The notes under the pieces: model-generated
What the model saw: only the letters and a program-made list of their open reading frames with translations
Databases searched by the model: none
Told to the model about the DNA's origin: nothing
Origin: a virus
DNA: 32,873 nt
Direction: 5' to 3' (one strand)
Virus record (IMG/VR): IMGVR_UViG_3300009163_000108
Coordinates: 1-32,873 of that record
Shown: piece after piece, positions 7,801-12,008 of the stretch
Numbering within the stretch: position 1 is the first letter of the stretch
How the letters are laid out: each line of letters starts with the position of its first letter
Program-made: the position numbers and the translations under genes

Positions 7801-7850
7801 CCTAGTCTGGGTGGCGACAGTTGGTGGACCCTCCTGTCTTGGGTTATTCT

Positions 7851-8315
7851 ATGAAAATGATTCCCGGCGTCAACCGATACGCAAAGAGACCTGTTTACGA
7901 AACCGAGTCCGACCGCGATGAGCAGCGGGCCGTGGCGAAGGTGTTGCGCGCTGCGTGGCAGGTCGATGTCAAGCTGATGCCGAAACTGGCGACGGCTGAC
8001 TACCAGATCACGCGCGAGGGCAGGCTACTGGCCATCGGCGAACACAAGCGGCGCCGGGTGACGGCGGATACCTACGACACGCTGATCCTGTCCTACGCCA
8101 AGGCACGCAAGCTCCTCATCATGGGATACGAGCGCCGGGTCAACGTGCTCATCATCGTCCACTACGACGACCAGCTGATGTGGGCTCACCTGACCAACGC
8201 GCATCTGGAGAAGAGTCGGAAGGCCGGTCGCACCGACCGTGGCGACATCCACGATATCGAGCGGTGCGTCGAGATACGCCAGTCGGAAATGAAGAAGATC
8301 AAGGTGCCTGATTGA
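7851..8315 (+). CDS. Putative PD-(D/E)XK-fold nuclease-like protein
   Basis: This protein has 154 residues from the chosen ATG. Residues 23-70 carry a candidate nuclease core: E24 in a first helix, D50 in 'TADYQI', and E64-x-K66 in 'AIGEHKRR'. That order and spacing fits the PD-(D/E)XK fold. Strands and helices continue with 'VNVLIIVHYDD'. If real, it would cut DNA, as phage resolvases or host-genome nucleases do, or it could be an inactive relative. A TTG at 7821 with GGGTGG 6 bases upstream would add ten residues and is a possible alternative start. The ATG has no clear ribosome-binding site. The stop overlaps the next start. The fold call is moderate. Confidence 0.55.
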   Translation: MKMIPGVNRYAKRPVYETESDRDEQRAVAKVLRAAWQVDVKLMPKLATADYQITREGRLLAIGEHKRRRVTADTYDTLILSYAKARKLLIMGYERRVNVLIIVHYDDQLMWAHLTNAHLEKSRKAGRTDRGDIHDIERCVEIRQSEMKKIKVPD

Positions 8316-9406: not shown

Positions 9407-9736
9407 ATGACGTTTCAAGTACGCGGCGATGAGGGCGTTGGCTTCCTCAACGAGCTGCCAGACAATTTCCGCAAGCGCCAGAAGATAGAAATTTCGGATG
9501 AGAAGCTGATCGAGGCGGCGTACAATCTGTCCGCGCGCCAGTTCGAGGCGTGGAAGCTCGCGGTCGTGCATGGCTACAGCGACGCTGAAATTGCAGATGC
9601 ACTCTGCACCTTCGATAAGGCGACGCTGCCCGGCGACGTGCGCTCAGCGCTCAAGCTCGCAGCCAAGAATGGCTACCCTGTGCCGGGCGATCCAGAGCCC
9701 AAGAAGTATCGCGCGCGCGTGAAGGAGCCCGCGTGA
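9407..9736 (+). CDS. Hypothetical protein with a possible sigma4/LuxR-type helix-turn-helix
   Basis: This protein has 109 residues. Residues 43-80 read LSARQFEAWKLAVVHGYSDA then EIADAL, and later 'DVRSALKLAAKNGY'. That order resembles the HTH of sigma-70 region 4 and LuxR-type regulators (a helix starting LSxRQ, then GYSDAEIAxAL, then a recognition helix). The N terminus (FLNELPDNFRKRQKIEISDE) is charged and the C terminus (PKKYRARVKEPA) is basic. It starts with a strong AGGAG 6-7 bases upstream and is the first gene after the tandem-hairpin leader. A DNA-binding regulator is plausible but not proven; the second half of the HTH is imperfect. Confidence 0.6.
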   Translation: MTFQVRGDEGVGFLNELPDNFRKRQKIEISDEKLIEAAYNLSARQFEAWKLAVVHGYSDAEIADALCTFDKATLPGDVRSALKLAAKNGYPVPGDPEPKKYRARVKEPA

Positions 9737-10119
9737 TGGCCGAGCATGAGACGGTAGAGAAGTTGGCGAGGGCTATCTATGAGGCAGGCATTCCGAAGGG
9801 CGGGAAGTTCTACCACGCATGGGAAGACCTAGAGAGCCAAGGCTTTTACGCCCAGCACGACCTTGCGATGATGCAAGCCCGCGCCGCCATAGCCGCCATG
9901 GGAGACGGCTGGCAGGACATAGCTAGCGCGCCGAAATCTCCTGACCTGCACAACGTCGCGGAGTTTCTGGCGTGGTGTCCGAGCGACGGTTCAGCTGGCG
10001 GATATCGGCGCGTTGTCTGGTGGGAGCCGAAGCAAAAGTGCTGGTCGTCTGACCGCGACATACCAGAGACGTTCACCCACTGGCGCCCACTTCCACCATC
10101 ACCGGGAGAAAAGCCATGA
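9736..10119 (+). CDS. Two-part protein: 'ARAIYEA' repeat domain plus DUF551-like C terminus
   Basis: This protein has 127 residues. Residues 1-57 (VEKLARAIYEAGIPKGGKFY and on) are a helical domain repeated nearly unchanged in the gene at 11123. The C terminus, from 'WQDIASAPK' to 'THWRPLPPSPGEKP', fits the DUF551 pattern found in many phage accessory genes. The ATG overlaps the previous stop (TGATG), with AAGGAG 9 bases upstream. Function is unknown. DUF551 proteins are typical cargo of phage accessory regions. The nucleotide-level similarity to 11123 indicates recent duplication. Confidence 0.7.
   Translation: MAEHETVEKLARAIYEAGIPKGGKFYHAWEDLESQGFYAQHDLAMMQARAAIAAMGDGWQDIASAPKSPDLHNVAEFLAWCPSDGSAGGYRRVVWWEPKQKCWSSDRDIPETFTHWRPLPPSPGEKP
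9752..9900 (+). repeat. Duplicated gene segment, copy 1 (partner 11140-11283)
   Basis: About 145 bp encoding the 'VEKxARAIYEAGIPKGG...AWEDLESxGFYAQHDL' domain is highly similar to 11140-11283. The last 26 bases (9875-9900) are instead identical to 11433-11458, near the end of the partner gene. The second copy therefore looks as if it has been split by an insertion or shuffled. Confidence 0.8.
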
Positions 10120-10214
10120 GCGTAGAGTACGGCGTAATGCCGAAACAACTAGAGATTGAAAGGGACTTACATGACTTCCGAAATTCACCCGCCACCGACC
10201 GAGTTCACCGCTGA
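10116..10214 (+). CDS. Possible 32-residue coupled micro-ORF
   Basis: This ORF starts MSVEYGVMPKQLEIERDL and overlaps the previous stop by ATGA, with GGGAG 8 bases upstream. It runs 44 bases into the next gene in another frame. The same upstream 20 bases (10100-10119, repeated at 11580-11599) start a convincing membrane-protein gene at 11596, which supports translation here. The protein itself shows no features, so it may be a decayed remnant whose ribosome-binding site survives. Confidence 0.3.
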   Translation: MSVEYGVMPKQLEIERDLHDFRNSPATDRVHR

Positions 10215-10416
10215 CGAAATCAAGCTAGACGATGTTCTCCGGTTCTTTCACTACGGCCACCTGCCCCCGACCCTGCAAGGGCGGTCTAAGCCGTTCTGCG
10301 ATCTAGCGCGATTGCTAATCGACACGACGCCACGCTGCCCGCAGCGGACGATTGCCCTCAACAAACTGATCGAGGCGAAGGACGCTGCTGTCCGCGCTTC
10401 ACTGCCGCCAATCTAG
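10171..10416 (+). CDS. Acb2/Tad1-hairpin-like small protein, possible anti-CBASS cyclic-nucleotide sponge
   Basis: This protein has 81 residues. After a disordered acidic N terminus, residues 21-76 form two helices joined by a short turn. They carry 'RFFHYGHLPPTLQGRSKPFC', then DLARLLIDTTP, then the second-helix signature 'QRTIALNKLIEAKDAAVRA'. This strongly resembles the small phage proteins grouped with the Acb2/Tad1 hairpin domain. Acb2 proteins oligomerise and sequester cyclic oligonucleotide signals, which blocks CBASS and in some cases Thoeris defence. The size and the accessory-island setting fit. A GGGA ribosome-binding site lies about 7 bases before the ATG; a TTG five codons earlier is less likely. 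Family membership is from memory of the pattern, and the sponge function here is inferred. Confidence 0.6.
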   Translation: MTSEIHPPPTEFTADEIKLDDVLRFFHYGHLPPTLQGRSKPFCDLARLLIDTTPRCPQRTIALNKLIEAKDAAVRASLPPI

Positions 10417-10425
10417 GAGACTGTG

Positions 10426-10803
10426 ATGAGCGAAGCGTCGCATCGTGAGTGCATAGCCGAAATCATGGGCGTGCTGAAAAAGTACGACATGGCCGGAGCT
10501 ATCACGGTTATCTCAAAGGAGCGTGCGGCGTTTCGCTATCACTTCCCGACATGGTCGGTTGTGAAACTGCACGAGACATCTGACGGCGGACTTGGTGTCC
10601 GCATCAAGTCAAAGGCGACTGACTTCCCATCACGGGAGGCCCAGCACAGAGCCAACGAGTTGAGCGCACACATCGTCTATCAGATGCGCGACATCGCCAT
10701 GAACACCTACGGCATGTGCGTAGCTGTGGGCGAAAAGATGGATGAGCATTGGAACGTCACGCACGTTTCCCATTCCGATTTTGATCCGGAGCGTTCGCAG
10801 TGA
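10426..10803 (+). CDS. Hypothetical phage accessory protein
   Basis: This 125-residue protein belongs to a type of small alphaproteobacterial-phage proteins of unknown role. It starts 'ECIAEIMGVLKKYDMAGAIT' and then 'VVKLHETSDGGLGVRIKSKA' and 'DFPSREAQHRANELSA'. It is mixed alpha/beta with no membrane segment. The stop of the Acb2-like gene overlaps its GGAG ribosome-binding site, which lies 6 bases before the ATG. A GTG one codon earlier is possible. Its own stop overlaps the next start (GTGA), so it belongs to one coupled operon. Confidence 0.65.
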   Translation: MSEASHRECIAEIMGVLKKYDMAGAITVISKERAAFRYHFPTWSVVKLHETSDGGLGVRIKSKATDFPSREAQHRANELSAHIVYQMRDIAMNTYGMCVAVGEKMDEHWNVTHVSHSDFDPERSQ

Positions 10804-11123
10804 CCGCACACGCTGAACTGATCGAGCGGTTGCGCGGACTGCAAACGACTTGCCCAACACTCCACGCCACGTTTTCCGAAGCCGCAACCGCTCTCGCAGC
10901 ACTCGTGGCCGAGCGTGATGCGCTGCGGATGTGCGCGGAGGCTGGCGGCGAACTGCTCAAAGCAATCGATGCTGGCCGTATGCGCCAGCGGGTCGGAGTG
11001 ACTGGCCAGACCATGGACGCTCAGCTACGCGCGTCCGTCTATGAACGAGTGCCAGCCTACCCCGTCGAAGAGGCTCGCGAAAAGTACACGCTCGCCCTTG
11101 CCTCGCTGAAAGGGGGAGCGTGA
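10800..11123 (+). CDS. Ead/Ea22-like small accessory protein, copy 1
   Basis: This 107-residue protein starts with a GTG overlapping the previous stop. Residues 4-45 match 'HAELIERLR ... AATALAALVAERDALR', a pattern common in Ead/Ea22-type phage accessory proteins. The middle and C terminus are unique. The N-terminal half is duplicated in the gene at 11733, with 27 identical bases at 10809-10835 and 11739-11765. Function is unknown. Confidence 0.65.
   Translation: MTAHAELIERLRGLQTTCPTLHATFSEAATALAALVAERDALRMCAEAGGELLKAIDAGRMRQRVGVTGQTMDAQLRASVYERVPAYPVEEAREKYTLALASLKGGA
10809..10835 (+). repeat. 27-bp exact direct repeat, copy 1 (partner 11739-11765)
   Basis: It encodes HAELIERLR in two neighbouring Ead/Ea22-like genes. 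A second block of similarity encoding AALVAERDALR follows about 60 bases later in both. Confidence 0.85.
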
Positions 11124-11599
11124 TGGCCGACCACGCTGAACAGGTGGAGAAGGTGGCGAGGGCTATCTATGAGGCTGGCATTCCCAAGGGCGGGCGCAAT
11201 TACGCTGCGTGGGAAGACCTAGAGAGCGAGGGCTTTTACGCCCAGCACGATCTTGTGATGAAGCAAGCCGCAGCCGCCATAGGTGTCTGCCGTGCCGCTT
11301 TTTTACCGCCCCCCGAAGCCCGCCCTGTAGCGACTGATGATCAAATCGAACGGGTAGCTCGGGCGATCTGCGAAGCCACGTCAGGTCCGTTTGAGATGTT
11401 GGATGATGTGGGCCGCGATGCGCTGCGCTGGGAAGCCCGCGCCGCCATAGCCGCCATGCCTCCCGCCCTCTCCCCCGAGCTAATCGACAAGCTCAGCAAG
11501 CTCGCGACGTACCTCACAGAGCAGGGCGAATACGAGGCGTGCGATCTGATCGACACAGTCGTTGAGCGACTGACACCCCCACCGGGAGAAAAGCCATGA
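11123..11599 (+). CDS. Paralogue of the 9736 gene with a duplicated internal motif
   Basis: This protein has 158 residues. Residues 5-55 repeat the 'VEKVARAIYEAGIPKGG' domain of the 9736 gene. A second, diverged copy starts at residue 73 (DQIERVARAICEATSGPFEM) and ends EARAAIAAM. A helical C terminus and the tail PPPGEKP follow, the latter again shared with 9736. The DUF551-like part of 9736 is absent. The ATG overlaps the previous stop (TGATG) after AGGGGGAG. Function is unknown, and the structure shows duplication followed by domain exchange. Confidence 0.7.
   Translation: MADHAEQVEKVARAIYEAGIPKGGRNYAAWEDLESEGFYAQHDLVMKQAAAAIGVCRAAFLPPPEARPVATDDQIERVARAICEATSGPFEMLDDVGRDALRWEARAAIAAMPPALSPELIDKLSKLATYLTEQGEYEACDLIDTVVERLTPPPGEKP
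11140..11283 (+). repeat. Duplicated gene segment, copy 2 (partner 9752-9900)
   Basis: It is highly similar in nucleotide sequence to 9752-9900 except at its 3' end. There a different segment is inserted before the shared 26 bases reappear at 11433-11458. Confidence 0.8.
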
Positions 11600-11736
11600 C
11601 CGACGAAGAGATCAAACGCATCCGCGACGAAAATCGCCACTACGCGGTTTTTGCCATCGTCAGCTTTATTCCGATCCTTCTGATGGTCGTGCTGTTCTTT
11701 GTGGGCGCGGCGCTGAGTGCAGGTGGTGAGCCATGA
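11596..11736 (+). CDS. 46-residue single-span membrane protein
   Basis: The protein starts with a charged helix (MTDEEIKRIRDENRHY). One strong membrane segment follows at residues 17-40 (AVFAIVSFIPILLMVVLFFV and on), and then the tail SAGGEP. The ATG overlaps the previous stop (ATGA) with GGGAG 8 bases upstream, and its own stop overlaps the next ATG (ATGA). The charge pattern predicts the N terminus in the cytoplasm. It could be a superinfection-exclusion, holin-like or effector membrane peptide; nothing selects among these. Coupling on both sides makes translation likely. Confidence 0.7.
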   Translation: MTDEEIKRIRDENRHYAVFAIVSFIPILLMVVLFFVGAALSAGGEP

Positions 11737-12008
11737 ACCACGCTGAACTGATCGAGCGGTTGCGCCGTGTCTCTGACTGTGACGCACCCGCATGGGCCTA
11801 TGACGAGATCAGCGATGCCGCCGATGCGCTAGCCGCACTCGTGGCAGAGCGTGATGCGCTGCGGGAGGCGCTGGAAGAGATCGCCAAGCAGGCTCCCGCG
11901 AAAGACATGGACGAAGACTACTACGACGCCGCCGATTTTGAAGACGGTTACGACCGCTGCATTTTTCGCGCCCGCGCCGCTCTTGCTCAGGGGGGTGAGC
12001 ATGGGTGA
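11733..12008 (+). CDS. Ead/Ea22-like small accessory protein, copy 2
   Basis: This protein has 91 residues. The N-terminal half (HAELIERLRRVSDC, then AADALAALVAERDALREALE) duplicates the gene at 10800. The C terminus is acidic (KDMDEDYYDAADFEDGYD) and ends 'FRARAALAQGGEHG'. Starts and stops overlap the neighbours (ATGA at the 5' end). It is a typical accessory gene product of unknown role. Together with 11123 it forms the second copy of a two-gene module. Confidence 0.65.
   Translation: MNHAELIERLRRVSDCDAPAWAYDEISDAADALAALVAERDALREALEEIAKQAPAKDMDEDYYDAADFEDGYDRCIFRARAALAQGGEHG
11739..11765 (+). repeat. 27-bp exact direct repeat, copy 2 (partner 10809-10835)
   Basis: Identical to 10809-10835 and in the same reading frame of the paralogous gene. 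Confidence 0.85.

Follow-up and report, generated by a model that had tools for sequence, protein, structure and literature searches.

The 81-residue protein encoded at positions 10171-10416 of the window (the whole stretch of DNA analysed here, a 32,873-base IMG/VR virus record) belongs to a family that, as computation supports, makes up a distant and previously unrecognised branch of the Acb2/Tad1 hairpin superfamily. The best explanation of the protein, to which we give slightly better than an even chance, is a divergent, probably oligomeric immune-signal sponge with a different pocket, distantly related to Acb2/Tad1 and encoded by a mobile phage gene. The label that fits is 'divergent Acb2/Tad1-hairpin-superfamily protein, putative signal sponge', and the protein should be called neither Acb2 nor Tad1.

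The open reading frame of 81 residues described in the sequence-only reading is present, with both of the motifs quoted there (Table 1). Compared with its closest different relative (locus L002, 96% amino-acid identity), the changed codons comprise 25 synonymous and two non-synonymous ones, which identifies it as a real protein-coding gene under selection; the corresponding counts against a further relative (L003) are 32 and 12. The gene is under strong purifying selection. Another record in the set (L219, IMGVR_UViG_3300027736_000195) is the same virus, since from 6171 onwards it agrees with the window at 8,243 of 8,243 bases. A 32-codon open reading frame (10117-10215) overlaps the 9733 gene's stop by an ATGA at its own start; it reads in a different frame past the beginning of the hairpin gene and might have a role in translational coupling.

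Table 1. Positions of the hairpin gene, its parts and its downstream neighbour in the window, and of fused family members in their own loci.
Feature	Position	Strand	Basis
Probable ribosome-binding site AAGGG, 6 nt upstream of the hairpin gene ATG	10160..10164	+	Sequence
Gene of the 81-residue hairpin protein	10171..10416	+	Open reading frame with ATG start and TAG stop; PHROG match; purifying selection; profile and fold evidence
FHYGHLP motif, residues 26-32; F26, H30 and L31 almost invariant	10246..10266	+	Alignment, profile alignment
First long helix, residues 33-52; near-invariant S39, A46	10267..10326	+	AlphaFold2, conservation
Second long helix, residues 57-76; near-invariant K65, E68, K70, D71, R75	10339..10398	+	AlphaFold2, conservation
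Downstream gene, possible partner	10423..10803	+	Synteny; amino-acid identity 85% (L220) and 70% (L004)
Fused member, phage OH	L041 765-1133
Fused member, phage SNUABM_3	L045 1234-1686
Fused member, phage Jollymon	L218 2054-2692

The hairpin gene is one in a series of tightly packed small genes upstream of the capsid gene. The window carries a portal gene (phrog_156) and a major capsid protein of the N4-gp56 type (TIGR04387; phrog_334), the latter having its nearest matches in Microcystis phage Mae-JY35, Rhizobium phage RHph_Y1_10, an uncultured member of Caudoviricetes and Paracoccus phage KLEP18-1; a putative phage PDDEXK endonuclease is encoded at 7821-8315 (PF24579, E 4.5e-28). The location of the hairpin gene, with early structural genes on one side and the capsid gene on the other, would suit a virion or head-assembly protein, and copies also lie near portal or capsid genes in Acinetobacter B1251, Vibrio 1.012.O and Vibrio martha 12B12. 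However, the neighbours in sequenced phages range from portal and head genes to lysis genes (holin/endolysin) and to genes of nucleotide metabolism or DNA modification, the family is present in unrelated phage types, and close relatives of the gene occur without the window's other proteins around them. Because the gene settings are so variable, we consider a virion role very improbable.

Among 13 related loci, two (L220 and L004) share solely the hairpin gene and the downstream gene starting at 10423 with the window island, and the remaining 11 share the hairpin gene alone. The gene thus moves alone or with this downstream partner and is a mobile accessory gene. The 10423 gene, which accompanies it in two otherwise unrelated viruses and has no match among 50,697 phage records, is a possible functional partner. 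The small, mostly overlapping downstream genes (10423/10426, 10800, 11120, 11596 and 11733), three of which (10426, 10800 and 11596) had been taken to make a counter-defence cluster plausible, do exist as open reading frames. They gave no confident match in Pfam, PHROG or, where tested, PADLOC; no neighbour in the window has a defence-related match, and only the 10423 gene travels with the hairpin gene, so that the island as a whole is unsupported as a counter-defence cluster. The products of 9733-10119 and 11120-11599 have a common N-terminal part of 54 residues that is 80% identical, and those of 10800-11123 and 11733-12008 both start near HAELIERLR and have a common LAALVAERDALR stretch; the island seems to expand through duplication and module swapping.

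The protein's own family is formed by phrog_1761 (E 8.5e-22) and phrog_5120 (E 2.6e-13), both of which are annotated as of unknown function with no link to sponges recorded there. The protein could not be assigned through Pfam, NCBIfam or PADLOC, the database entries encountered call family members hypothetical or unknown, and a literature search found, under the terms used, no paper discussing the phrog_1761/5120 family. Its relatives occur on more than 550 viral contigs and more than 200 genome contigs, in phages with hosts from Alphaproteobacteria to Vibrio, Acinetobacter, Gordonia and mycobacteria. A single-query tblastn search placed them in 310 phage records (including Vibrio, Erwinia jumbo, Acinetobacter, Gordonia, Brevibacterium, roseobacter and mycobacterial phages), so that the family is about as abundant as the recognised Tad1-like hairpin proteins, which a search of the same single-query kind found in 380. 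An alignment of 174 non-redundant sequences displays the core F-x-Y-x-H-L-P-x-x-L-Q-x-x-S-x-P-F-x-x-L-A ... P-x-x-x-E-R-T-V-A-L-R-K-L-L-E-A-K-D-A-A-V-R-A, in which H30, L31, L66, E68, K70 and V74 are fixed and F26, S39, A46, K65, D71 and R75 reach 98-99%. Part of the set was gathered with a pattern including the C-terminal KD..VR block, so that conservation of this block is overstated; the N-terminal half is unaffected. A PDB sequence search with the single protein found nothing. The family profile gave a weak match to phage Gp22 (8jaj chain a, residues 426-471; E 0.0025), in which the HLPxxLQxxS...LA stretch of the family lies inside a 529-residue protein, possibly by chance.

The resemblance to Acb2/Tad1 proposed in the sequence-only reading was to be checked by a profile HMM search against that hairpin domain. 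The window protein has no match to the corresponding Pfam model (PF24729, curated cut-off for membership 27 bits), and the proposal therefore fails in its simplest form; among relatives, weak sub-threshold matches (two of 30 and five of 82, best E 0.011-0.022) were no better than those to unrelated models. PF24729 covers two branches, the Tad1-like 'SREKSLALTKLEEAVMWANAAIAR' branch and the Acb2 branch 'RW.AIGKTDLQ.GFMALVRAVAQP', and 80 proteins were fetched for each. The fetching queries were a consensus and a sequence partly read off PDB alignments, and the comparisons themselves were made on the real fetched sequences. Aligned by hhalign, the family matched the Tad1-like branch with a probability of 73-74%, rising to 78-86% with more sequences and to 85-91% against a broader Tad1-like set; with an independently built tool alignment it was 82%. 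The hhalign scores of 30-35 compare with at most 20 for 200 column-permuted nulls and with no match for reversed-profile controls. The two accepted branches of PF24729 score 34-37 against each other, so that in strength the link between the family and the Tad1-like branch falls little short of the accepted one.

Searches in both directions agree with this link. When the Tad1-like profile was compared with 519 real families and single open reading frames from the same DNA, the hairpin family came first (32.7; next 22.0), and an HMM of the Tad1-like branch run against 12,421 open reading frames matched only the hairpin family at E < 0.01 (18 of 18). Conversely, the top 40 matches of the family HMM among 12,402 sequences were all Tad1-like (best E 2.7e-4). 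In the best profile comparison up to 53 columns align, taking in the F-x-Y motif and the greater part of both long helices. Both groups share the order of an F-x-Y motif and two long helices (the Tad1-like proteins being phage proteins of the form 'F-x-Y-H-x-P ... SREKSLALTKLEEAVMWANAAIARN'), the turn P..(R)E(K/R)(S/T) and the start of the second helix, (S/T)xALxKLxEA; alignment and profile alignment make FHYGHLP the counterpart of the F-x-Y-H-x-P motif. By contrast, the distance from the F-x-Y motif to helix 1 is 4-5 residues shorter in the hairpin family. Direct profile-profile comparison with the Acb2 branch gave no match, and an individual Tad1 homologue (L383) likewise failed to match the profile of the family directly. 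In 36 viral records, too small a sample to carry weight, the family did not co-occur with any PF24729 gene. Taken as a whole, distant homology of the family to the Acb2/Tad1 hairpin is likely, and we hold it with considerable confidence.

The two-helix hairpin that had been read from the sequence is borne out by structure prediction. The AlphaFold2 model (82 relatives; mean pLDDT 93.4, pTM 0.82) has short helices at residues 14-19 and 21-26, followed by two long antiparallel helices at 33-52 and 57-76; a Tad1-like control was predicted with similar helices, one short (3-8) and two long (18-39 and 44-66). By the fold description in ref. PMC12043709 the model is of the Acb2 type, and Acb2 itself (T4 Vs.4, PDB 7uq2; phage p26, 8h2j) is likewise a small phage protein in which a short N-terminal helix is joined to two long antiparallel ones. 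Tad1 (PDB 7uav) shares its C-terminal hairpin motif with the family by way of the Tad1-like branch, but in Tad1 a four-stranded antiparallel N-terminal beta-sheet precedes the hairpin (PMC12043709), whereas the 81-residue model contains no strand. In a viral structure library the top matches were mainly the family itself, followed by many entries named 'Acb2/Tad1 hairpin domain-containing protein' at E of at least 0.3; at this level, and leaving the family itself aside, the named structures that came nearest were mostly Acb2/Tad1 hairpin proteins (Lactococcus 1706, probability 0.89; ctRRy11, 0.80; Saintus, 0.75; Stephig9, 0.75, 1.3 Å over 43 columns; ctiJI15, 0.72, 0.8 Å).

An unrelated helical hairpin with a merely similar appearance and an unconnected function has to be weighed against this, as helical hairpins are readily matched by chance, Pfam gives no match and a Foldseek search of the PDB with the model returned neither Acb2 nor Tad1. 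The last of these carries little weight, because the Tad1-like positive control itself, with T4 Acb2 and Tad1 on top, reached only E 0.2-2. Controls by permutation, by reversal, with real families and with reciprocal searches all set the match apart from chance, and the viral-library fold search indicates the same Acb2/Tad1 family; we therefore rate a chance likeness as improbable. The original proposal is thus partly supported: a distant homology stands, drawn from profiles, reciprocal searches and viral-library folds, and some relatives adjoin Tad2 sponge genes, but PF24729 and the Acb2 branch are not matched and the ligand-site residues are lost.

The ligand-contact residues of Acb2 (Tyr 11/Y8, K26, T68 of the T4 protein and the Arg at the start of helix 2) are not kept in the family. 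We take K26 and R67 of Acb2 to have ligand-site roles. In profile alignments the position of K26, an Arg in the Tad1-like branch, is occupied by S39; the SRE-motif Arg at the start of helix 2 is replaced by P57; and the position of T68 in T4 Acb2 is Arg in 94% of the family and Asn64 in the window protein. More generally, the invariant R26, R44, T51, W59 and N61 of the Tad1-like branch correspond to S39, P57, Arg/Asn64, A72 and V74. The aromatic Y28, kept in 91% of the family, and the invariant H30 lie around the place where Acb2 has its binding Tyr. Strongly conserved instead are Y28, H30, S39, K65, E68, K70, D71 and R75, of which H30, K65, K70, D71 and R75 are specific to the hairpin family compared with the Tad1-like branch. 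In T4 Acb2 the T68M change lowers affinity and the Y8A mutant is deficient in binding (PMC12657230). To judge from these alignments, the pocket region is strongly constrained, with a chemistry different from that of Acb2. The changed ligand-site positions and the other conserved set suggest that the ligand is probably not the one preferred by Acb2; a constrained pocket with altered chemistry points to another ligand or another use, and argues against the name Acb2. Because PF24729 and the Acb2 branch are not matched and the ligand-site residues are lost, we infer rather than observe any anti-CBASS activity or cyclic-nucleotide binding of the kind first proposed.

Some copies of the hairpin gene, like some of Acb2, adjoin Tad2, which is known to sequester Thoeris and CBASS signals (PMC12043709). 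Tad2 was located by means of a consensus, and PF11195 confirmed it in seven records. In a Pfam scan of 126 immediate neighbours, Tad2-like proteins (PF11195) were the commonest, tied with DNA methylases (four each). A Tad2-like gene lies within 500 nt at six of 216 hairpin-family loci, while control tiles from the same DNA, 763 in all, yielded none (Fisher p 1e-4, an optimistic value because the loci are not fully independent); the same distance holds at four of 80 true Acb2 loci. Tad2 neighbours are found at fewer than 3% of hairpin-family loci, mainly in alphaproteobacterial phages. They lie upstream at some loci and downstream at others, and pairwise identity among the adjoining Tad2-like proteins is mostly 31-53% (89% for one pair), an indication that the two genes came together on several separate occasions. 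At six loci (L227, L309, L310, L313, L326 and L030), mainly in alphaproteobacterial phages and prophages, the Tad2-like protein abutting the hairpin gene has an extra N-terminal domain (FIGTKLIKAxPM...YRGW...GYISWSP).

A homologue of the Acb2/Tad1 hairpin need not be an immune sponge, and could have been reused for binding a different small molecule or a host protein, the bound partner being for example a regulator of the host or a component of phage nucleotide metabolism. Such reuse would fit the fixed way in which the known ligand-site positions are replaced, as well as the copies that lie among genes for thymidylate synthase, pyrophosphohydrolase, dNMP kinase and adenylate kinase. It would also fit the fusion of some copies to other domains: the member in Ochrobactrum phage OH is joined to an anti-TRAP-type zinc domain, and those in Erwinia jumbo phage SNUABM_3 and Gordonia phage Jollymon have longer uncharacterised N-terminal parts. 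However, the rate of co-location with Tad2 resembles that of true Acb2, and the gene has the scattered single-gene distribution that is typical of counter-defence genes. We regard reuse as a serious but rather unlikely explanation.

For the divergent sponge that we prefer, an oligomeric function is attributed by analogy. Copies of the protein would assemble into an oligomer, as in Acb2 and Tad1, the interfaces of which would form pockets holding a nucleotide-derived immune signal; with the signal captured, the effector of CBASS, Thoeris or a related system would stay off. Acb2 itself is a hexamer, with pockets between its protomers, that binds cyclic di- or trinucleotides of CBASS; sponges are also triggers of Panoptes (PMC12657218, PMC12657230). 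The broader proposal, that phrog_1761/5120 constitutes a new and very widespread family of sponges, sharing a hairpin ancestor with Acb2 and Tad1, with a rebuilt pocket for a different and perhaps novel signalling nucleotide and sometimes acting beside Tad2, is advanced tentatively and at somewhat less than even probability. If these proteins are sponges, many phages carry a counter-defence gene that has gone unnoticed, and the altered pocket would indicate an immune signal beyond those covered by Acb2 and Tad1.
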